From NCBI GenBank assembly GCA_934593275.1, contig CAKTQE010000001.1:1-64000 (forward strand): 64,000 bases of DNA. Reading direction: 5' to 3'. The notes under the pieces are model-generated. The model ran no database searches, was not told the origin of the DNA, and worked only from the letters and a program-made list of their open reading frames with translations. Positions within the stretch are counted from its first letter, which is position 1, and each line of letters starts with the position of its first letter. The position numbers and the translations under genes were made by a program. This DNA is from an uncultured Oscillospiraceae bacterium (GTDB taxonomy: Bacteria; Bacillota; Clostridia; Oscillospirales; Oscillospiraceae). Shown here in pieces: positions 10,388 through 18,254 of this stretch.

Positions 10388-10711
10388 TCAATTCTGCTCT
10401 TTATAGGCACGGCCCCAGGCTTCCATGGCATCCATAATGGGGCGCATGGACTCTCCCAGTTCAGACAGTGCGTACTCCACCCTGGGCGGGACCTCCGGAT
10501 AGACGGTGCGGGTGATGATGCCGTCACTCTCCATGGAACGAAGACTGTCGGTCAATACCTTTTGGCTGATGCCCTCCAAATCCTTTTTCAGTTCGTTGAA
10601 CCGCCAGGGGCGCGCCAGCAAATTGCGCATGATCAGCAGTTTCCATTTGCTGCCGATCATCTGGACGGTGGTGGCTACCGGGCAAGCAGGAAGTTCTTCT
10701 TTTGTCAGCAT
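10388..10711 (-). CDS. HxlR-family transcriptional regulator
   Basis: The 107-residue protein is a one-domain winged helix of the HxlR (DUF24) group. A conserved Cys (ACPVATTVQMIGSKWKLLIM) precedes the recognition region RFNELKKDLEGISQKVLTDSLRSMESDG and the wing VPPRVEYALSELG. Members sense redox-active or electrophilic compounds, often through that N-terminal Cys, and usually control a divergent operon. The ATG at 10711 is preferred because AGAGGTG lies 6 nt upstream; the GTG at 10720 overlaps it. The gene is divergent from the Cys-repeat peptide/radical SAM operon, and a likely operator sits in that operon's promoter. Confidence 0.93.
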   Translation of the reverse strand: MLTKEELPACPVATTVQMIGSKWKLLIMRNLLARPWRFNELKKDLEGISQKVLTDSLRSMESDGIITRTVYPEVPPRVEYALSELGESMRPIMDAMEAWGRAYKEQN

Positions 10712-10743
10712 ATATAGCACCTCTTTTTGAATGTTATATTTTT

Positions 10744-10772
10744 ATTATAGTGCAGCGCTCCAAAAAACGCAA
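10744..10772 (-). promoter_or_regulatory. Promoter of the HxlR-family gene
   Basis: On the minus strand: TTGCGT, 17-bp spacer, TATAAT, 33 nt before the start codon. Confidence 0.75.
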
Positions 10773-10794
10773 GAGCCAATCTCCTTGCCCAATA

Positions 10795-10823
10795 GTTACC
10801 AAAAGGTGACTGAGTAATAAAAT
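10795..10823 (+). promoter_or_regulatory. Promoter with overlapping HxlR-type operator for the ACG-repeat peptide operon
   Basis: The near-perfect inverted repeat GTTACC-AAAA-GGTGAC (10795-10810) overlaps a -35-like TTACCA (10796-10801), which is followed after 16 bp by TAAAAT (10818-10823). The size and position fit a dimeric HxlR-family repressor. Binding by the adjacent HxlR protein is inference. Confidence 0.6.
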
Positions 10824-10912
10824 AGTGCGTACTTGTGCCATGAAAAATTCCGAGTAAAATAAGAATCACAGAGGGGCGATACACCCGCTGAATACAATCT
10901 GGAGGTAATAAT

Positions 10913-11239
10913 ATGGCACTTTCTAATCTCTTTGGCTGGCACAAGAAGACGGAGGCTTCCGCTCCCGCAGCAGCTTGCGGCACCGCCTGCGGTGCCGGTG
11001 ACAAGCCCACTGAAAAGCCCGCCGCCTGTGGCACTGCCTGTGGTGCTGCTGACAAGCCCGCTGAGAAGCCCGCCGCCTGCGGCACTGCTTGCGGCGCAGG
11101 TGACAAGCCCGCCGAGAAGCCCGCTGCCTGTGGCACTGCCTGTGGCACTGCCTGTGGCACTGCCTGTGGTGCTGCTGACAAGCCCGCTGAGAAACCCGCC
11201 GCCTGCGGCACTGCCTGTGGTGCAGGTGACAAGCAGTAA
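10913..11239 (+). CDS. ACG-repeat cysteine-rich peptide, putative radical SAM-modified RiPP precursor
   Basis: The 108-residue product has a short leader-like N-terminus (MALSNLFGWHKKTEASAPAA) followed by five blocks of about 17 residues, each ACGTACG plus A(G/A)DKP(A/T)EKPA. The fourth block carries four ACGs instead of two. All twelve Cys lie in ACG units, and there is no other aromatic-rich or structured region. The gene starts with GGAGGTAATAATATG and is directly followed by a radical SAM/SPASM enzyme, the usual arrangement for Cys-rich RiPP precursors with thioether or other Cys-centred modification. I recall computationally flagged CXXX-repeat peptides next to such maturases, but cannot confirm membership. 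No transporter or protease gene adjoins it, so the product may stay inside the cell or be exported by unlinked genes. Confidence 0.85.
   Translation: MALSNLFGWHKKTEASAPAAACGTACGAGDKPTEKPAACGTACGAADKPAEKPAACGTACGAGDKPAEKPAACGTACGTACGTACGAADKPAEKPAACGTACGAGDKQ
10973..11236 (+). repeat. 51-bp in-frame tandem repeats of the Cys-rich peptide gene
   Basis: Five 51-bp-type units (17 codons), one expanded by two extra 12-bp ACGT-coding units. The near-identical nucleotide sequence, differing mainly at synonymous sites, implies recent duplication and allows copy-number change without a frameshift. Confidence 0.85.
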
Positions 11240-11270
11240 AAATCCAAGGGGTATGCTCCAAGGAAAACTT

Positions 11271-11322
11271 GGGGCGTATCTCCAAGAGGGCAGCCGCCCC
11301 TGCACTTTTGGAGATACGTCCC
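11271..11322 (+). promoter_or_regulatory. Strong RNA hairpin between peptide and maturase genes
   Basis: A 15-bp stem GGGGCGTATCTCCAA / TTGGAGATACGTCCC (one G-U pair) closes a GC-rich loop that contains GGGCAGCCGCCC. There is no T run, so it is unlikely to be a classical terminator. A smaller competing stem, CCAAG (11259-11263) / CTTGG (11268-11272), overlaps its left edge. It probably sets the ratio of peptide to maturase by RNA processing or 3'-end protection. Confidence 0.65.
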
Positions 11323-11343
11323 ATCACAACAAGGAGGCTCATT

Positions 11344-12387
11344 ATGAAACAGTATTTTTCTTTCCAATGGCACATCACCGATGAATGTGACCAGCGGTGC
11401 AAGCACTGCTACATCTTCTCTGAAAACTGCAACAAAAAGCTGGATGCCATGTCCTGGCAGCAAATGCAGGACACATTCTACAACTGCCTGGACTTCTGCC
11501 AGGTCTATGACCGTCTGCCCTATTTTTACATCACCGGCGGCGACCCCATTCTCCACCCGGACTTCTGGCGTCTGTGTGGGCTTCTGAAACAGCACAGCAT
11601 TCCTTTTACCATTCTCGGAAACCCCTTCCACCTGACCGATGAAGTTTGCCGGAAGCTCAAAGAATACGGCTGCGAAAAATACCAGCTTTCCATTGACGGA
11701 TTGCGTGAAACCCACGACTGGTTCCGCAAGCCCGGCAGTTTTGACTGCACTTTGGAGAAAATCGGCTGCATCAATCGGGCGGGCATCCGCTCTGTGGTAA
11801 TGACCACCGTTTCCGGCACGAACATTGACCAGCTACCCGGAATCATCGATGCGGTGGTAAAGGCCCATGCCAATGTCTTTGCGTTCGCCCGCTATTGCCC
11901 CACCAGCGAGGAAAAGGATGTGGGCATTGAGCCGCTGCGTTACCGCAAGCTGCTCTCTGACTGTGACCAGAAATTCAAGGAATACGAGGCCGCCGGTTGT
12001 GAGACCTACTTCAACAAGAAAGACCATCTGTGGACACTGTACGAGTACGAAACCGGTGCTTTCAAAATCCCCGAAGCCGTAGAGGAGGGCATGATCTACG
12101 GTGGCTGCAACTGCGGCAACTGCCACCTGACCATCCTCCCCACAGGAGATGTTTACGCCTGTCGCCGGGTACAAAACAGCAAAGTAGCCAATGTGTTCAC
12201 TGACCGACTGGCGGATGTCTGGGTGTGCCAGATGGAGCAGTACCGGGATTACAAGAAATTTGAAAAGTGCAGCAAGTGTGAGCTTTTGGCGTTCTGCCGG
12301 GGCTGTCCCGCCGTGGCCAGCGGAAAGGACGGAAACTTTTACGCCGCCGACCCCCAGTGCTGGAAGGAGATCAAGGAAAATGCCTGA
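11344..12387 (+). CDS. Radical SAM/SPASM peptide maturase
   Basis: The 347-residue protein has the radical SAM cluster motif CDQRCKHC (residues 15-22), the SAM-binding YITGGDPILH, and a C-terminal SPASM-type Cys set (GGCNCGNC, YACRR, CSKCELLAFCRGC) for auxiliary Fe-S clusters. Such enzymes form thioether, C-C or epimer modifications on ribosomal peptides. The adjacent ACG-repeat peptide is the obvious substrate. The ATG at 11344 has AAGGAGG 7 nt upstream; a longer open frame runs into the hairpin and is not used. The stop overlaps the nitroreductase start by 8 nt, so translation is coupled. Confidence 0.93.
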   Translation: MKQYFSFQWHITDECDQRCKHCYIFSENCNKKLDAMSWQQMQDTFYNCLDFCQVYDRLPYFYITGGDPILHPDFWRLCGLLKQHSIPFTILGNPFHLTDEVCRKLKEYGCEKYQLSIDGLRETHDWFRKPGSFDCTLEKIGCINRAGIRSVVMTTVSGTNIDQLPGIIDAVVKAHANVFAFARYCPTSEEKDVGIEPLRYRKLLSDCDQKFKEYEAAGCETYFNKKDHLWTLYEYETGAFKIPEAVEEGMIYGGCNCGNCHLTILPTGDVYACRRVQNSKVANVFTDRLADVWVCQMEQYRDYKKFEKCSKCELLAFCRGCPAVASGKDGNFYAADPQCWKEIKENA

Positions 12388-12982
12388 TATTTTTGAAACC
12401 ATTGCTCACCGCCGTTCCATCCGGCGGTTTGAGCCGAAGCAAATTGAAGAAGCCGCCTTGCAGCAGATCATTCAGGCCGGTTTATATGCGCCCAGCGCAG
12501 GAGGACGGCAAGGCGTGATCTTCGCTGTCTGTCAGGACAAAGAAGTAAACGAACGGCTGGGAAAAATCAAGCGGGCAAATTCCCATCCCCGCATGGCAAC
12601 GGCCACCAGCTTTGTTTCCCGGGAGCAGCCCAGCATCGCAGATGATCCCAAGCTGACAAACGCCTTTTATGGCGCACCAACTGTGATCACCATGTTCGCA
12701 CCGAAGAATTTCCTGTTCTCCGTAGATGACTGTGCGGTTGCGGCAGAAAATATGATGCTAGCGGCGGATGCCCTGGGTATCGGCTCCTGCTACATCGGAC
12801 AGGGCTGGCCCGCCTTTGACGACCCTTACGGACAGGAAATCTTGCGGCAGTGGATCATTCCAACAGACCATTACGCCGTCATGCAATTGCTCTTGGGTTA
12901 TCCCAAGGAGGGCGATAAGCACCCCACCCCGAAGCCCAGAAAAGAGGGCCGGGTGATCCGAATCGGAGGTATTGTAAAATGA
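12380..12982 (+). CDS. Nitroreductase-family flavoprotein
   Basis: The 200-residue protein is a typical FMN-dependent nitroreductase. It opens with FETIAHRRSIRRFEPKQIEE (FMN phosphate-binding Arg/Ser), then GLYAPSAGGRQ, with AAENMMLAADALGIGSCYIG and a C-terminal LLLGYPKEG. Its reductant and substrate are unknown; the family reduces nitro groups, quinones and flavins or performs dehydrogenation on peptides. It lies between the maturase and a ferredoxin fusion with overlaps at both ends, which suggests it is part of the same modification or electron-transfer chain (inference). Confidence 0.92.
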   Translation: MPDIFETIAHRRSIRRFEPKQIEEAALQQIIQAGLYAPSAGGRQGVIFAVCQDKEVNERLGKIKRANSHPRMATATSFVSREQPSIADDPKLTNAFYGAPTVITMFAPKNFLFSVDDCAVAAENMMLAADALGIGSCYIGQGWPAFDDPYGQEILRQWIIPTDHYAVMQLLLGYPKEGDKHPTPKPRKEGRVIRIGGIVK

Positions 12983-13584
12983 ACGCACAAACCTGTTTGG
13001 AAAAACTGAAGCTCTGCGGAGTGCTGTCTTTTGCCACCGTAGATAAAAACGGCGCACCCCAGATCCGCTGCATCAGCGCGATTCATTATGAACCGGATTC
13101 TCTGTATTTCTTCACGGCACGGGGCAAGGCATTTTGTGACGAACTGCTGACCGATGGACGGGTGCAGATTCTGGCTTATACCCGGTTCAAGGAAATGATC
13201 CGGCTGTCCGGCAAGGCCGTTCCCGCTGCGGAGCAGGAAGAAAAAATCAACAGGATCTTTACAGAACAGCCCTATCTTGCCAATGTATATCCCGGAGATA
13301 CCCGAAAGATCGGCATCATCTTTGAATTGAAGAACTTCTCCATCGAATATTTCAATTTGGGTGTGAACCCCATCTTCCGAGAAACCTATACTGTCGGTCT
13401 GTGTCCGGTGGAGGAGAAGGGCTATCGTATCACCGATGCCTGCATCGGCTGCGGCACCTGCCTGAACCACTGCCCCCAGAAGTGCATTGTTCCCGGCGCG
13501 CAATACACCATCCAGCCGGAGCATTGTCTCCATTGCGGGGCGTGCTATGAAAACTGTCCGGTAAAGGCGGTGGAAAAGCTATGA
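12979..13584 (+). CDS. FMN-binding split-barrel / two-cluster ferredoxin fusion
   Basis: The product is 201 residues. Residues 1-135 resemble pyridoxamine-5'-phosphate-oxidase-like flavin-binding split-barrel proteins (GVLSFATVDKNGAPQIRCIS, LYFFTARGKAF). Residues 145-201 hold two 4Fe-4S motifs, CIGCGTCLNHC and CLHCGACYENC. This architecture can pass electrons from ferredoxin-type clusters to flavin, plausibly serving the nitroreductase or the radical SAM enzyme (inference). The start overlaps the nitroreductase stop as ATGA, and its stop overlaps the macrodomain start. Confidence 0.9.
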   Translation: MNAQTCLEKLKLCGVLSFATVDKNGAPQIRCISAIHYEPDSLYFFTARGKAFCDELLTDGRVQILAYTRFKEMIRLSGKAVPAAEQEEKINRIFTEQPYLANVYPGDTRKIGIIFELKNFSIEYFNLGVNPIFRETYTVGLCPVEEKGYRITDACIGCGTCLNHCPQKCIVPGAQYTIQPEHCLHCGACYENCPVKAVEKL

Positions 13585-14363
13585 ATCAAGCACAGCGGCG
13601 GCTGTTTCTCATCAAATCGCTTTTGAACGAGAAAACAGAATATCGGGATATGGCTATTCCGGCAGAGCCGGAGCACCAACGGCAGCTTTTGCGGGGCCTG
13701 ATGAATATCCGGAATTCACGGCCTATTGATGTGGATTTTCTGGCCGTGCAGGATGACTATCTGCAAGGGGAACTGGCAGCCAAAGGCATTACGGACATCG
13801 AGAATTTAGTCCCTGTTCAGCCAGGGCTGTACCTCTGGCAGGGAGATATTACAACCCTGAAATGCGATGCCATCGTCAATGCCGCCAATGCAGGACTCAC
13901 CGGCTGCTATATTCCCAGCCACCGCTGCATTGACAACGCCATTCACACCTTTGCAGGGGTGGAACTGCGCCTTGCCTGTGGGGAACTGATGGAACAGCAG
14001 GGCTACCCCGAACCCACCGGACAGGCAAAAATCACCCCAGCGTTTAATCTTCCCTGCAAGTATGTACTGCATACCGTTGGACCCATCGTCAAGGGACGGG
14101 TAACAAAACAGGATGAAGCACTTCTCGCCTCCTGCTACCGCTCCTGCCTGGAACTGGCGGCAGAAAACGGCTTGGAAAGTGTGGCGTTCTGCTGTATTTC
14201 CACGGGAGAATTTCATTTTCCCAATGAGCAGGCGGCGCAAATCGCCATAGAAACCGTGAAACAGTTTATGAATACTAAAACCAGTGTAAAGAAAGTGATC
14301 TTCAATGTTTTCAAAGACTTGGACAACGAAATCTACGCCCGATTGCTGGGCGCAAATGAATAA
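13581..14363 (+). CDS. Zinc-type macrodomain protein-ADP-ribose hydrolase
   Basis: The 260-residue protein has an N-terminal helical extension (1-75) and a macrodomain. Motifs are QGDITTLKCDAIVNAAN (88-103), then GCYIPSHRCIDNAIHTFAG, whose C109, H114 and C116 match the Cys/His cluster of the Zn-Macro class, and HTVGPIV with a late CISTGEFHFP phosphate loop. Zn-Macro enzymes remove ADP-ribose placed by class M sirtuins, and exactly such a sirtuin follows with an 8-nt overlap. In known systems the target is lipoylated GcvH-L, encoded alongside. No GcvH-L or LplA gene is present here, so the target may differ. Confidence 0.93.
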   Translation: MNQAQRRLFLIKSLLNEKTEYRDMAIPAEPEHQRQLLRGLMNIRNSRPIDVDFLAVQDDYLQGELAAKGITDIENLVPVQPGLYLWQGDITTLKCDAIVNAANAGLTGCYIPSHRCIDNAIHTFAGVELRLACGELMEQQGYPEPTGQAKITPAFNLPCKYVLHTVGPIVKGRVTKQDEALLASCYRSCLELAAENGLESVAFCCISTGEFHFPNEQAAQIAIETVKQFMNTKTSVKKVIFNVFKDLDNEIYARLLGANE

Positions 14364-15171
14364 TTTGCAGACCGCTCTGAGCCAGGCGGATACCGTGGTG
14401 ATCGGTGCCGGGGCCGGTCTTTCAACCTCTGCCGGATTCGTTTACACCGGAGAGCGGTTCCAGAAATACTTTTCGGATTTTGAGAAAAAATATGGCTTTC
14501 AGGATATGTATTCCGGTGGGTTCTACCCCTTTGCAACGCCAGAGGAGCATTGGGCCTATTGGAGCCGTTATATTTTCATCAACCGGTATATGGATGCCCC
14601 CAAGCCGGTCTATGAAACTCTTTTGAAGCTGGTGGCCGAAAAAGACTATTTCGTGATCACCACCAATGTGGACCACTGCTTTCAAAAGGCGGGTTTTGAT
14701 AAAAAGCGGCTGTTCTATACCCAGGGGGATTACGGCCTGTTCCAGTGCAGTACCCCCTGCTGTCAGGAAACCTTCGAAAATGAAAAAACCATTCTCGAAA
14801 TGGTGGGACGGCAGGAAGACATGAAAGTCCCCACAGAGCTTCTGCCTGTCTGCCCCCACTGCGGCAAACCCTTGACCATGAATCTCCGCTCCGATGATCG
14901 GTTTGTAGAGGACGAGGGCTGGCACCGGGCAGCACAGCGGTATGAACAGTTTCTCCGCAGTCGGGGCAATGGGAAAATTCTTTTTCTGGAATTGGGCGTT
15001 GGTTATAACACCCCGGGGATCATCAAGTATCCGTTCTGGCAAATGACCGCACGAAATCCCAATGCCACCTATGCCAGTATCAACCTTGGGCAAGCCATTT
15101 GCCCAAAGGAAATACAGCAGCAATCCATCTGCATGGATGGGGACATCGGTGAGACCCTTGCATCCTTATAA
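14356..15171 (+). CDS. Class M sirtuin (SirTM), putative protein ADP-ribosyltransferase
   Basis: The 271-residue protein has a Rossmann GAGAGLSTSAG (17-27) and TTNVDH (102-107). At the position of the deacetylase His it has Q123 in TQGDYG. N104 and Q123 are 19 residues apart, the same spacing as the two residues reported essential in streptococcal SirTM. Cys pairs (CSTPCC, CPHCG) look like a zinc site. SirTM enzymes use NAD+ to mono-ADP-ribosylate proteins rather than deacetylate. The gene ends the operon and is followed by a terminator. The partnership with the macrodomain implies reversible modification, possibly redox-responsive given the HxlR regulator (inference). Confidence 0.93.
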   Translation: MNNLQTALSQADTVVIGAGAGLSTSAGFVYTGERFQKYFSDFEKKYGFQDMYSGGFYPFATPEEHWAYWSRYIFINRYMDAPKPVYETLLKLVAEKDYFVITTNVDHCFQKAGFDKKRLFYTQGDYGLFQCSTPCCQETFENEKTILEMVGRQEDMKVPTELLPVCPHCGKPLTMNLRSDDRFVEDEGWHRAAQRYEQFLRSRGNGKILFLELGVGYNTPGIIKYPFWQMTARNPNATYASINLGQAICPKEIQQQSICMDGDIGETLASL

Positions 15172-15173
15172 AG

Positions 15174-15210
15174 AAAAGAAGCCGCTGGGAGGAAAACAGC
15201 GGCTTCTTTT
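15174..15210 (+). terminator. Terminator of the peptide-sirtuin operon
   Basis: A 14-bp stem AAAAGAAGCCGCTG / CAGCGGCTTCTTTT with a 9-nt loop directly after the sirtuin stop. It also serves the convergent TRAP gene. Confidence 0.88.
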
Positions 15211-15226
15211 GGAGAATATTTTGTGT

Positions 15227-17170
15227 TTATGCGGTCTTTACAGAGGCCGCTCTTTTCTTGTCCAGGATGCTCAGAGCCACCACCGAGCCGGAAAGAACCA
15301 GGCCCACCACGTCGGTCATGGTGCCGGGGTAGATCATCATCAGGCCGCCCAGCAGTGCCAGTCCTCTGCGGAACCAGCTGAGTCTTCCAAAGAGGTAGCC
15401 CTCCATGGCGGCGGATACCGAGGCGATGCCTACAAGAGAGGTAACGGTAATGAGAATGACCTCGGGAACGGTGGTATCGATCAGCAGCATTGAGGGGCTG
15501 AGGGCAAAGGCATAGGGTACGATGAACGCGCCAATGGCCAGTTTTGTGGACTCCAGAGCGGTTTTCATGGGGTTTGCCTGGGCAATGGCGGAACCGGCAT
15601 AGGCGGCCAGAGCCACCGGCGGGGTCAAATCTGCCACGATGCCAAAGTAGAAGACGAAGAAGTGGGCCGCCACCATGGGAACACCCATCCGCACCAGAAT
15701 CGGGGCGCAGGTGGCTGCCATGATGCAGTAGGTGGCGGTGGTGGGAACACCCATGCCCAGAACGATGCAGCAAATCATGGTCAGGAACAGGGCGATCAGC
15801 ACATTGTCTCCCGCCAGAACCACAATGGCGTTGATAATCACATTGGCCAGGCCCGTCATGGTGATGGTACCGGCAATAATGCCCGCAATGCCACAGGCCG
15901 CCGCCACGGTGATGGAACCCTGGCCACCGGCTGCCAAAGCTTCCAGCAGCCGCATGGGGGTGATGCGGGTCTCGGCACTAAAGAGGGTGACTACGATACA
16001 GGCAACAATAGACAGAGCCGCGGCGTACTGAATGCTCTTCTGGCTGGTGCTGACCAGGTAAATCAGTAGCACCATAGGAAGCAGCAGATAGCTCTTTTTC
16101 AGCAGCGGGACGATCTTGGGAAGCGACTCCTTGGGAAGACCCCGCAACCCCATTTTCTTGGCTTCCAGATGGACGGAGATAAAAATACCGGTAAAATACA
16201 GCAGTGCCGGAAGCACGGCTTTCAGGGCGATCTGGCCGTAGGGGATCTGCACATAGTCTGCCATCAGGAAAGCGGCTGCGCCCATAATGGGGGGCATGAT
16301 CTGGCCGCCGGTGGAGGCAGCGGCTTCCGCAGCCCCGGCAAACTCCGGCTTATAGCCCGCTTCTTTCATCAGCGGAATGGTCACGGCACCGGAACCCACC
16401 GTATTGGCTACGGAAGAACCGGAGACCACGCCCTCCAAGGCACTGGCCACCACCGCCACCTTGGCAGGGCCGCCGGAAAACCGGCCTACCAGAGCGTTGG
16501 CCGCCTGGATGAAGTAATCCGCAATGCCGGTGCGCTCCAAGAAAGCACCGAAGACGATGAACACCACAATGAACTTGGAACAGACATTGATGGGGGTTGC
16601 CAGAATGCCCTCTTTTCCGTAGAACAGATACCGGATGGAGTAATTGATTTTGCCCCAGAGCGAGGGGTTGGAAAGTCCTGCGGTAAGGGCATAGATTAGG
16701 AAGCACCCGGCCACCAGCAGAATGGGCAGGCCCACGCTTCTGCGGCATACCTCTGCCAGGGCCACAATGCCTACAATGCCTATGACAATCTGATAGTCCG
16801 CAAAGATGCTGCCCTGCTGGATGATGGTCTTGGCGTTAAAGGCATAGTACAAAAACGCCGCGGTACCCAGAGTCATCAGCACCAGGTCATACCAGGGGAT
16901 GTAGTTCACCCTCTGTCGACCCTTTTTCGCCGGGAACACCAGGTAGCCCAGCAGCACGATCCAGGCCACAAAGGTGGTCAGCCGCAATTCCTCCAGCCAA
17001 CTAGCAAAGAGGGTCACGCACAGGCAAAATACAGAAAACGTTGCCAGAATCAGATTCACGGCGATTCTGGGTTTTCCCTCCCAGATACGGACGTTGGATT
17101 CCCGGTCATATTTCTTCATGACCTCATCCAGGCCCATGGGTTCCTGGGCTTTTTTATCAAACAGACTCAT
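15227..17170 (-). CDS. TAXI-type TRAP transporter fused permease
   Basis: The 647-residue protein fuses the small (4-TM) and large (12-TM) TRAP permease subunits, as is usual for TAXI systems. Conserved parts include the DctM-like EGVVSGSSVANTVGSGAVTIPLMKEAGY and GGQIMPPIMGAAAFLMADY, and near the C-terminus GMGVPTTATYCIMA. It moves a small organic acid or amino acid using an ion gradient together with the binding lipoprotein encoded just upstream. The ATG at 17170 has AAGGAGGG 9 nt upstream. Two strong hairpins separate it from the binding-protein gene. Confidence 0.95.
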   Translation of the reverse strand: MSLFDKKAQEPMGLDEVMKKYDRESNVRIWEGKPRIAVNLILATFSVFCLCVTLFASWLEELRLTTFVAWIVLLGYLVFPAKKGRQRVNYIPWYDLVLMTLGTAAFLYYAFNAKTIIQQGSIFADYQIVIGIVGIVALAEVCRRSVGLPILLVAGCFLIYALTAGLSNPSLWGKINYSIRYLFYGKEGILATPINVCSKFIVVFIVFGAFLERTGIADYFIQAANALVGRFSGGPAKVAVVASALEGVVSGSSVANTVGSGAVTIPLMKEAGYKPEFAGAAEAAASTGGQIMPPIMGAAAFLMADYVQIPYGQIALKAVLPALLYFTGIFISVHLEAKKMGLRGLPKESLPKIVPLLKKSYLLLPMVLLIYLVSTSQKSIQYAAALSIVACIVVTLFSAETRITPMRLLEALAAGGQGSITVAAACGIAGIIAGTITMTGLANVIINAIVVLAGDNVLIALFLTMICCIVLGMGVPTTATYCIMAATCAPILVRMGVPMVAAHFFVFYFGIVADLTPPVALAAYAGSAIAQANPMKTALESTKLAIGAFIVPYAFALSPSMLLIDTTVPEVILITVTSLVGIASVSAAMEGYLFGRLSWFRRGLALLGGLMMIYPGTMTDVVGLVLSGSVVALSILDKKRAASVKTA

Positions 17171-17201
17171 AGAAGATTCCCTCCTTTTGGATCATCGGAA
17201 A

Positions 17202-17239
17202 CGCTGAAGAAACGGCCCTCTGCTGCCGTTTCTTCGGCG
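17202..17239 (-). promoter_or_regulatory. Intercistronic hairpin A in the TAXI operon
   Basis: A 15-bp imperfect stem CGCTGAAGAAACGGC / GCCGTTTCTTCGGCG with an 8-nt loop and no T run. It is likely a 3' stabiliser or partial attenuator that gives more binding protein than permease. Confidence 0.65.
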
Positions 17240-17248
17240 TTCCCTCAC

Positions 17249-17280
17249 TCCGGCGAGGCGGGGGGTACCGCCTCGCCGGA
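17249..17280 (-). promoter_or_regulatory. Intercistronic hairpin B in the TAXI operon
   Basis: A perfect 13-bp GC-rich stem TCCGGCGAGGCGG / CCGCCTCGCCGGA with a 6-nt loop, starting five bases after the binding-protein stop. Confidence 0.7.
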
Positions 17281-17285
17281 ATAAA

Positions 17286-18254
17286 TTACTGTGCATCTAC
17301 GGTAATGCCCTTTTCGGCAAAATACTTGGCTGCGCCCTTGTGGAACGGAGCGGTCATGCCGGAGGTGGCATTGTCCAAGCTCAGCTCCGCACCCTTGCCG
17401 TTTTCCTTGGCAATGTCGGCGGCGTTGTCAAAGATGGCCTTGGTCAGATTATAAACACTGTCCTCGGAAGCATCCTTGGAAACGATCAGGGTGGCCTTGA
17501 CGGTAACGGTAGATACGTCGCTTGTCTGGCCGGGATAGGTACCGGCAGGGATGGTATAGGCGGTGTAGAACGGGCAGGACGCCATCATAGCATCAGCCAC
17601 GGTACCGTCAATGGGGACCAAGTATGCGGAATTGGTGGTACACAGCTCCGTAATGGCGGGGGTGGGTGCGCCGGCTACGATGAACGCCGCATCGATCTTG
17701 CCGTCTTTCAAAGCGTCCGCGCTGTCCGCAAAGCTCTGATACTGGGCCTTGATGTCATTCTCCGTCAGACCGGCAGCGGTCAGCACATCCATGGCGTTGA
17801 AGTAAACGCCGGAACCGGGTGCGCCAATGGATACGGCCTTGCCTTTCAGGTCTGCCACGGACTTGATGTTTGCATCCATGGTCACCAGCTGAACAGACTC
17901 GGCATAGAGTCCGGCAACGACCCGGAAAGAATCCACCTTGCCGGTGCTTTCAAAGGAGCGGGTACCCTCCCAGGCGTAGGCCATGACATCGGACTGGACG
18001 GTACCCAGCTGATAGTCACCGGACTGGATGCCCTGGATATTGGCCTTGGAGCCGTCGGTGGCAACCACGGTCACATCAATACCCGCTTTATTCTTAATGT
18101 ACTGGCCCAGAACGCCACCGTAGCCGTAATAGGTTCCGGCAGAACCGCCGGTACCCATGGTCATCTTGGAAGCGGAGGTCCCGCCGCCGCAGGCAGCCAG
18201 AGAAAGGGTCAGGGCCGTGGTCAGGGCCAAGGTAAACAGTTTCTTGAATTTCAT
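17286..18254 (-). CDS. TAXI-family TRAP transporter substrate-binding lipoprotein
   Basis: The 322-residue protein has a lipoprotein signal (LTLSLAAC, lipidated Cys at residue 22) followed by the TAXI N-terminal pattern MTMGTGGSAGTYYGYGG. GAPGSGVYFNAMDVL and a large C-terminal periplasmic-binding fold follow. It captures the ligand outside the membrane for the permease at 15.2-17.2 kb. The ligand is unknown; TAXI proteins of this type often bind glutamate or C4-acids. It starts at an ATG with GGAGGAAAC upstream and has a clear promoter. Confidence 0.95.
   Translation of the reverse strand: MKFKKLFTLALTTALTLSLAACGGGTSASKMTMGTGGSAGTYYGYGGVLGQYIKNKAGIDVTVVATDGSKANIQGIQSGDYQLGTVQSDVMAYAWEGTRSFESTGKVDSFRVVAGLYAESVQLVTMDANIKSVADLKGKAVSIGAPGSGVYFNAMDVLTAAGLTENDIKAQYQSFADSADALKDGKIDAAFIVAGAPTPAITELCTTNSAYLVPIDGTVADAMMASCPFYTAYTIPAGTYPGQTSDVSTVTVKATLIVSKDASEDSVYNLTKAIFDNAADIAKENGKGAELSLDNATSGMTAPFHKGAAKYFAEKGITVDAQ

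Follow-up and report, generated by a model that had tools for sequence, protein, structure and literature searches.

We describe an operon on contig CAKTQE010000001.1 (GenBank assembly GCA_934593275.1) of an uncultured Oscillospiraceae bacterium, whose positions 1 to 64,000 form the stretch of DNA analyzed here (hereafter the window). At 10388-15210, a divergent HxlR-type regulator gene is followed, on the opposite strand, by a unit of six genes encoding an ACGX-repeat precursor peptide, its radical SAM maturase, two redox proteins, a Zn-type macrodomain (Zn-Macro, here Macro) and a class M sirtuin (SirTM). What is directly established is the gene content, the motifs, the catalytic residues, the modular co-occurrence, a common promoter element, and the near-absence of GcvH and LplA from the genomes concerned. 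Judging from these sequence data, we give about an even chance to reading it as an operon with which gut Clostridia meet thiol/electrophile stress and which would join a cytosolic multi-thiol peptide and detoxifying reductases to a reversible switch based on adenosine diphosphate (ADP)-ribosylation. The features are as follows.

10388..10720, minus strand: HxlR/DUF24-family regulator (Pfam HxlR PF01638, 7.5e-32)
10795..10810, no strand assigned: putative HxlR-family operator, inverted repeat GTTAC-N6-GTGAC (motif count in intergenic stretches)
10825..10834, plus strand: promoter element GTGCGTACTT (conserved among HxlR-preceded operons)
10913..11239, plus strand: ACGX-repeat precursor peptide, 108 aa, 12 Cys (TIGR04341, 116.2 bits)
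11344..12387, plus strand: radical SAM/SPASM maturase of the ACGX system (TIGR04340, 609.6 bits)
12380..12982, plus strand: nitroreductase-family flavoenzyme (PF00881, 2.3e-25)
12979..13584, plus strand: PNPOx-like flavin mononucleotide (FMN) domain fused to two [4Fe-4S] motifs (PF01243 and Fer4)
13581..14363, plus strand: Zn-type macrodomain, predicted ADP-ribosyl hydrolase (NF003163, 357.4 bits)
14356..15171, plus strand: class M sirtuin, SirTM (best PDB match 5a3a, 1.6e-70)
15174..15210, no strand assigned: intrinsic terminator, perfect 14-bp stem with T-run (inverted repeat)

An earlier reading made from the sequence alone had proposed this gene set at 10721..15210, and family searches and coordinates recovered all the genes as proposed, including a peptide in which 12 of 12 Cys residues lie in ACG. 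Overlaps of 4-8 nt link the last five genes, and the gap between the peptide and maturase genes is 104 nt; the SirTM start (ATG, 14356) was taken from the sequence, and its frame ends at 15171, just before the perfect 14-bp inverted repeat with T-run that closes the unit. The block is seen again in dozens of genomes, which is far above chance. Rfam and tRNA searches of the window gave no lead for the operon.

The peptide and the maturase exceed the curated cut-offs of TIGR04341 (28 bits) and TIGR04340 (400 bits), respectively, and their genes adjoin, so the pair is a clear member of the ACGX system. We examined the best 80 of 569 confirmed relatives in genome contigs, a set skewed to the kin of the window, and the row counts of conserved residues given below refer to loci, some of which share one genome. 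An open reading frame (ORF) for a peptide with at least three xCG precedes the maturase gene in 63 of the 75 loci with upstream room, and a divergent HxlR gene is present in 55 of 65. Among the 56 loci having at least 3.9 kb downstream, the nitroreductase was found in 39, the FMN/ferredoxin protein in 34, Macro in 22, SirTM in 29, and both Macro and SirTM in 21. On these counts, the operon usually comprises the peptide, the maturase and HxlR, with a reductase that can be exchanged and SirTM/Macro as an optional module. In ten ACGX genomes, SirTM lies behind the maturase without Macro; nine of the ten encode a Macro relative (47-62% identity), which lies elsewhere in the genome in eight of them and some 2 kb upstream of the maturase gene in the ninth. 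As a side observation, two ACGX loci (L055 and L058) stand in Candidatus Brocadia and Bacteroides records, and these are possibly misassigned Clostridia contigs.

The co-conservation that the sequence-only reading had put forward as its check was looked for in whole genomes, and it was found. In a class sample of 245 genomes, SirTM (E<=1e-40) is present in 39, namely in all eight maturase carriers versus 31 of 237 others (Fisher p=2e-7), and in all eight it is found no more than 3.7 kb downstream and on the same strand. In an order sample centred on G002 (295 genomes, 18 carriers), SirTM is present in 11 of 18 carriers versus 66 of 277 others (p=0.0013) and within the operon in seven; in one centred on G001 (245 genomes), in 9 of 10 versus 37 of 235 (p=1e-6) and within the operon in five. 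Pooled over 34 ACGX carriers, SirTM occurs together with the peptide and maturase in 26, in 18 of them within the ACGX operon, against a background of 13-24%. The two centres were reached via ACGX loci and so are not random draws; when they are left out, the counts become 24 of 32 and, within the operon, 17 of 32, with p values (1.3e-6, 0.003 and 6e-6) that, like those above, ignore relatedness and come from samples overlapping in part. A carrier was defined by the TIGR04340 cut-off in the class sample and, in the order samples, by E<=1e-100; G451 and G449 were dropped as carriers, G282 (487 bits) was kept here but stands outside the GcvH/LplA counts below, and for G528 (L213) we infer that SirTM is within the operon, the maturase gene being cut at two contig ends.

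The SirTM of the window scores just short of the Pfam SIR2 cut-off (20.9 versus 24), and its best solved match, 5a3a, is a SirTM entry of PMC4518038. Mapped by alignment to this structure (chain numbering offset 10), N103, Q122 and R177, numbered from residue 2, correspond to Spy N118, Q137 and R192 and are kept in 87 of 87 rows; with Gln in place of the catalytic His, together with Asn118 and Arg192 (Spy numbering), the protein belongs to class M, and its gene shows the linkage typical of SirTM, being overlapped by the Zn-type macrodomain gene (13581-14363). The macrodomain lies above the NF003163 cut-off of 272 bits and is recognized by Pfam as Macro too, and its best solved matches are MorMacro (8rsi) and then SauMacro (5kiv), both Zn-Macros. 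The Zn-loop of Zn-Macros supplies three Zn ligands (PMC11490716); here a metal loop and a Dx3H motif are recognized, with C109, H114, C116, D118 and H122 in 75 of 75 rows, and the choice of the putative Zn-binding loop residues among them is our own assignment. These invariant residues suggest ADP-ribosyltransferase activity for SirTM and hydrolase activity for the Zn-Macro. Separately, distant SirTM-like genes with 33-40% identity to the SirTM of the window were noticed in tandem, two or three in a row, at G419:C22, G515:C1, G671:C22, G354:C158, G356:C12 and G691:C34.

The regulator has the PF01638 fold and an N-terminal Cys, in the motif ACPV, at residue 12 of the frame LYMLTKEELPAC, with Cys in 101 of 101 rows, which places it among the HxlR/DUF24 redox regulators; it aligns with the Bacillus subtilis HxlR chain, Cys on Cys, and with the chain of YybR, which is presumably HypR. 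The Cys of B. subtilis HxlR reacts with formaldehyde, and other DUF24 members sense quinones, diamide and HOCl via the N-terminal Cys (PMC7835342, PMC6943732). The repeat GTNAC-N6-GTNAC is present in 49 of 84 unique HxlR-to-peptide stretches, compared with a mean of 0.05 after shuffling that preserves dinucleotides, and of the 15 stretches listed for maturase-free SirTM loci, one has it; the copy in the window is likely an HxlR-family operator. The promoter element in the form [AG]TGCNTACTT occurs in 73 of 84 ACGX stretches (shuffle mean 0.12) and in 9 of 11 stretches of maturase-free SirTM loci (shuffle mean 0.02), or 8 of 10 without a remnant locus in G209, where the shuffles do not preserve dinucleotides and duplicates (2 of 86 and 4 of 15) were dropped; all the stretches compared lie behind an HxlR gene. 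By eye, GTGCGTACTT sits at a weak -35 (TTGTGC, 10833-10838), followed by a -10 (TAAAAT, 10855-10860). A longer element, AAAANAGTGCKTACTT, gave 27 matches in 23 of 45 genomes and two in a reversed control. By coordinates, 15 of these precede ACGX operons, six precede maturase-free SirTM/Macro operons (one being the G209 remnant), three lie just behind SirTM and before other genes, which are of the NAD(P)-binding reductase type or of a 265-aa family, and three lie elsewhere. Because the promoter element is common to both, ACGX and SirTM/Macro belong to a single regulatory design, to which some loci are exceptions.

Several genes noticed beside these promoters may be recorded here. The 265-aa protein (MNKNxYKTxxFxKGE...VYDFGN...) stands behind the same promoter element at L205, L204 and L197 (G022, G041 and G195); its G022 copy has no Pfam match, and the family is a probable regulon member. 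The element also precedes a gene resembling a copper P-type ATPase, by eye, at L203 (G206:C3), which may be chance. Rrf2-like genes were seen before SirTM/Macro in L149 and L150.

We examined the history of the link in two trees. In the SirTM tree (65 rows, after removal of one duplicate and of three rows because of their length, with G209 scored as 'none'), the ACGX label changes at least four times on well-supported branches and 13 times by parsimony, the mean for shuffled labels being 19.1. In the maturase tree (75 rows), SirTM presence changes at least seven times on well-supported branches and 20 times by parsimony, with a shuffled mean of 25.1. The SirTM-ACGX link is thus clustered yet has been repeatedly made or lost; it is real but modular, and a single co-inherited SirTM/ACGX clade was rejected because neither tree supports it. 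In G209 (L142), a deletion took out the maturase and fused the start of the peptide to what remains of a nitroreductase, and the genes for the FMN/ferredoxin protein, Macro and SirTM have been kept; no other ACGX-type maturase was found in this genome (best E 2.5e-12). We therefore rejected L142 as an ancestral ACGX-free locus, and its retention of SirTM argues against strict dependence. This modularity on both trees, the promoter element common to maturase-free SirTM loci, and the 27 of 56 ACGX loci with room that have no SirTM would all be expected if SirTM/Macro and the ACGX peptide, a ribosomally synthesized and post-translationally modified peptide (RiPP), answered the same stress independently and had no biochemical contact. 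We regard such purely regulatory association as a serious possibility, somewhat short of an even chance; against it, co-regulation in trans would require neither the overlapping genes of the window nor the repeated assembly of a single operon (18 of 34 carriers).

The question of what SirTM modifies is sharpened by the genomes themselves. The known SirTM target is lipoyl-GcvH-L, modified at Asp27 (PMC4518038), and GcvH-L is described as the only known target, those of other SirTM/Zn-Macro systems being given as unknown (PMC11490716, Ariza et al. 2024). Full-length GcvH was found in just 2 of 33 ACGX carriers and in 1 of 31 other SirTM genomes, which have no maturase, where the remaining hits are partial (20-26 bits), some of them passing the Pfam cut-off, and were left uncounted; an LplA-type ligase was found in just 3 of 33 carriers. 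The absence of GcvH-L and lipoate ligase genes that had been pointed out for the operon is therefore borne out at the genome level. Neither GcvH-L nor LplA2 is among the seven genes of the locus, which places it outside the extended SirTM operons of the GcvH-L type. Because full-length GcvH is so rare, we rejected a lipoyl-GcvH encoded elsewhere in the genome as the usual target, and the SirTM target in these Clostridia is usually something else.

Because the carrier genomes mostly have no known SirTM target, the ACGX peptide becomes a testable candidate, and possibly a target, though not for operons that have no peptide. The specific form of this idea is that the mature peptide takes the place of lipoyl-GcvH-L as the thiol carrier and is the SirTM substrate, at Cys, at modified Cys, or at Asp/Glu of the DKPxEK spacers, with reversal by the Zn-Macro. 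It would repeat the logic of the staphylococcal SirTM operon, in which a thiol carrier, its equipping enzyme, flavin oxidoreductases, SirTM and Macro stand together (PMC4518038), and it would accord with the enrichment of SirTM in ACGX genomes in all three samples, weaker but still standing without the sample centres, with the lack of a detected full-length GcvH in 31 of 33 carriers, and with the repeated origin of the link. The closest solved Macro is moreover MorMacro, of the minimal-pair type and inactive on GcvH-L, and Zn-Macros are stated to be the sole known Cys-ADP-ribose hydrolases (PMC11490716). We nevertheless think it quite unlikely that the peptide is the substrate. The sole mapped SirTM acceptor is an Asp and not a thiol (PMC4518038), and the number of Cys in the peptide does not differ between loci with and without SirTM (23 versus 22, p=0.79), for which reason we also rejected a tie of SirTM to one peptide type. 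The proposal of the sequence-only reading that the peptide or the maturase is ADP-ribosylated is weakened in the same way: SirTM/Macro operons without the peptide share the promoter element, about half of the ACGX operons have no SirTM, and G209 has lost the maturase and kept SirTM/Macro. Furthermore, full-length GcvH was not found in 30 of 31 maturase-free SirTM genomes either, so another SirTM target must exist there. The fullest version, that the matured ACGX polythiooxazole, made anaerobically by an SbtM-like enzyme, replaces lipoyl-GcvH-L as the physiological SirTM substrate, being thiol-ADP-ribosylated under electrophile stress and released by the Zn-Macro, is a long shot. If true, it would be, to our knowledge, the first ADP-ribosylated RiPP and the first SirTM target outside GcvH-L.

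The peptide family itself is highly regular. In 85 distinct peptides of the related loci, Gly follows 550 of 555 Cys and Ala precedes 514, the repeat Cys being mostly 4 or 13 residues apart with charged spacers, and the X of ACGX is Ala in 310 of 555 cases, Ser in 178 and Thr in 59. The leader, MALSNLFGW in the window, has the family form MALSNLxGW, and its W9 is kept in 73 of the 73 peptides starting with MxL; the Pfam accession PF27855 is given for peptide relatives. Pfam gave no transporter or peptidase among the six operon genes, and the commonest transporter-like clusters near the best 80 loci, judged by eye, were an ABC ATPase in seven and a MATE-type protein in four. Because of this lack within the operon and the few transporter-like neighbours, the product likely stays in the cytosol.

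As for the chemistry, the maturase has the CX3CX2C motif in 104 of 104 rows and, by Pfam, a SPASM domain in the window protein. Its second-best NCBIfam family is SbtM (TIGR04082, 151.8 bits), which is also second best for four divergent relatives (171-198 bits, versus 307-547 bits to TIGR04340). SbtM removes four hydrogens from Cys to yield a thiooxazole (PMC11002830). Because SbtM is the nearest other family, we favour the prediction that the ACGX maturase oxidizes Cys to 5-thiooxazole (-4 H per Cys), although the similarity is below the SbtM family cut-off. MNIO enzymes install 5-thiooxazoles in peptides with EGKCG repeats, and the products are copper-binding, easily alkylated and show absorption near 302-305 nm (PMC12668002 preprint, PMC12538549); the ACGX product is predicted to be an anaerobic counterpart of these multi-thiooxazole peptides. 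No MNIO (DUF692) domain was found by Pfam among the seven locus proteins, so the locus is not of the MNIO captophorin/bufferin type.

A different outcome would be thioether crosslinks of the sactipeptide or ranthipeptide kind, giving a folded cyclic peptide possibly acting in signalling or metal binding. The SPASM domain is consistent with it, as is the best solved relative, 5wgg (8e-9), which we take to be the thioether maturase CteB, and Thr, Ser or Ala at X together with the Cys spacing of 4 would fit Cys-to-X crosslinks. We consider this rather unlikely, as the window maturase gives 62.1 bits to StsB (cut-off 625) and 51.6 bits to PapB (cut-off 340), far under its score to SbtM and outside both families, and because X is mostly Ala there is no fixed crosslink acceptor. 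In the search with PADLOC, SirTM and Macro had no match, on which ground we set aside an anti-phage defence as unlikely; the maturase gave 49.9 bits to pVip, a weak likeness of the kind general to radical SAM proteins. A radical SAM protein of 611 aa with a long N-terminal extension was noticed at L178 (G451:C7); it scores 377 bits to TIGR04340 and 190 to SbtM, no Cys-bearing small ORF was found in 700 nt upstream, and it is possibly an intermediate between the ACGX maturase and SbtM families.

Within 4.5 kb downstream of the maturase, the nitroreductase is present in 43 of 70 loci and an MDR-type reductase, assigned by Pfam, in 23, and never both. Because the two are never together, we read them as exchangeable detoxifiers, and a role of the nitroreductase as an azole dehydrogenase for the peptide was rejected since the 23 loci have the MDR reductase instead. 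Together with the Cys of HxlR, these reductases support the electrophile- or thiol-stress setting that had been suggested for the operon. The FMN/ferredoxin protein has its eight cluster Cys in 58-59 of 59 rows, which give it two ferredoxin clusters, and its gene is a neighbour of the maturase gene in the operon; it might thus supply the radical SAM enzyme with electrons. This is unlikely, however, because relatives (33-36% identity) precede Macro/SirTM without a maturase in L149, L150, L151, L153 and L154, because the G209 remnant retains the gene, and because it was not found in 22 of 56 ACGX loci with room. L157 was rejected as a further maturase-free case, since there the gene has only about 0.5 kb of contig upstream of it. 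Two side observations concern neighbouring genes. In L173, an additional nitroreductase-like gene (37%) separates HxlR from the ACGX peptide, and this genome (G397) encodes both GcvH and LplA; and a DUF1848 gene (PF08902 for L162, the others by likeness) lies in L162, L176 and L144, after the MDR or nitroreductase gene of the ACGX operon or directly before Macro/SirTM. In the window itself, TRAP/TAXI-type transporter-like genes and a binding protein, named by eye (15227-18254, minus strand), converge on the operon terminator.

The stress operon that we propose would operate as follows. HxlR/DUF24 would sense reactive compounds by its N-terminal Cys and activate the divergent operon by way of a site immediately before the weak promoter, as in its family. 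The ACGX peptide, once made, would remain in the cytosol, and the cysteines of its A-C-G units would be modified by the radical SAM enzyme, most likely through a four-electron oxidation of each to a 5-thiooxazole, as SbtM does. The product may scavenge electrophiles or metals polyvalently through its soft thiolates. The nitroreductase, or the MDR quinone-reductase-like enzyme, and the FMN/ferredoxin protein would reduce the offending compounds. SirTM would add, and the Zn-Macro remove, ADP-ribose on a regulon target other than lipoyl-GcvH.

A number of observations weigh against this scheme. SirTM is not near 27 of the 56 ACGX loci with room; 12 of 75 loci have no peptide by the first test, three of which have a short peptide by a looser test; and 22 of 45 genomes have no exact AAAANAGTGCKTACTT match. 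The incompleteness of metagenome-assembled genomes lowers the weight of all absences. An Rrf2-like gene (cluster c16, by eye) lies upstream of L019, L029, L037 and L039, instead of or besides HxlR, so HxlR is not universal, and HxlR could be a repressor and not an activator. For the predicted thiooxazole chemistry, the window maturase is far below the SbtM cut-off (151.8 versus 350 bits) and thus outside that family, SbtM profile positions 1-197 have no match in it, a more distant fifth relative ranks SbtM third (121 bits), and heme b synthase gives 103-186 bits to the window maturase and the four divergent relatives.

Among known systems, the operon most resembles the extended SirTM operon of Staphylococcaceae and Lactobacillales (PMC4518038, Rack 2015), with which it shares a class M sirtuin, a Zn-Macro, flavin oxidoreductases, a small thiol-bearing carrier candidate and a redox-stress setting; it differs in having no GcvH-L/LplA2, in a carrier candidate belonging to the RiPPs, with Cys repeats and an accompanying radical SAM enzyme, and in a nitroreductase/MDR reductase and FMN-ferredoxin protein where that operon has OYE and LLM. 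With the SirTM/Zn-Macro minimal pairs (PMC11490716), it shares the enzyme pair, MorMacro being the best solved match, although here the pair stands in a larger operon with concrete target candidates. The regulons of B. subtilis HypR, YodB and HxlR likewise have a Cys-bearing DUF24 regulator controlling flavin reductases, and the passages on them in PMC6943732 and PMC7835342 name no RiPP or SirTM. The thio(seleno)oxazole RiPPs of SbtM (TIGR04082; PMC11002830, PMC12538549, PMC12668002) are the nearest other maturase family and have a Cys substrate, whereas the ACGX maturase is under their cut-off, does not match the first 197 profile positions and faces many ACG repeats. Captophorins, bufferins, fontiphorin and bulbicupramide (PMC12668002 preprint, PMC12538549) have many short xCG repeats in the precursor, as EGKCG, bind copper, and have been proposed, with dispute, to serve detoxification; captophorin-type systems use MNIO iron enzymes and a partner protein, whereas the ACGX operon has a radical SAM enzyme and no MNIO gene.

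The sequence-only reading knew of no description of the combination, and this holds in part: the peptide-maturase pair is already named in NCBIfam (TIGR04340/TIGR04341), which covers the pair alone, and no paper linking it to SirTM was found. Among the papers listed from the open-licence PMC literature, none was found on the ACGX pair, nor on the SirTM/Zn-Macro-ACGX operon with its HxlR regulon. The pair is thus already catalogued, and the operon and the regulon are new in that literature.

The finding makes the question of the SirTM target testable: searches for full-length GcvH came up empty in 31 of 33 ACGX carriers and in 30 of the 31 further SirTM genomes examined, and in roughly half of the ACGX operons the SirTM gene has a small peptide of Cys repeats, a maturase for it and redox enzymes as its neighbours. 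If the predicted chemistry is true, an SbtM-like enzyme acting on ACG repeats would give gut bacteria an anaerobic radical-SAM route to multi-thiooxazole peptides, a class that has so far come from iron-oxygenase pathways (PMC12668002, PMC12538549).

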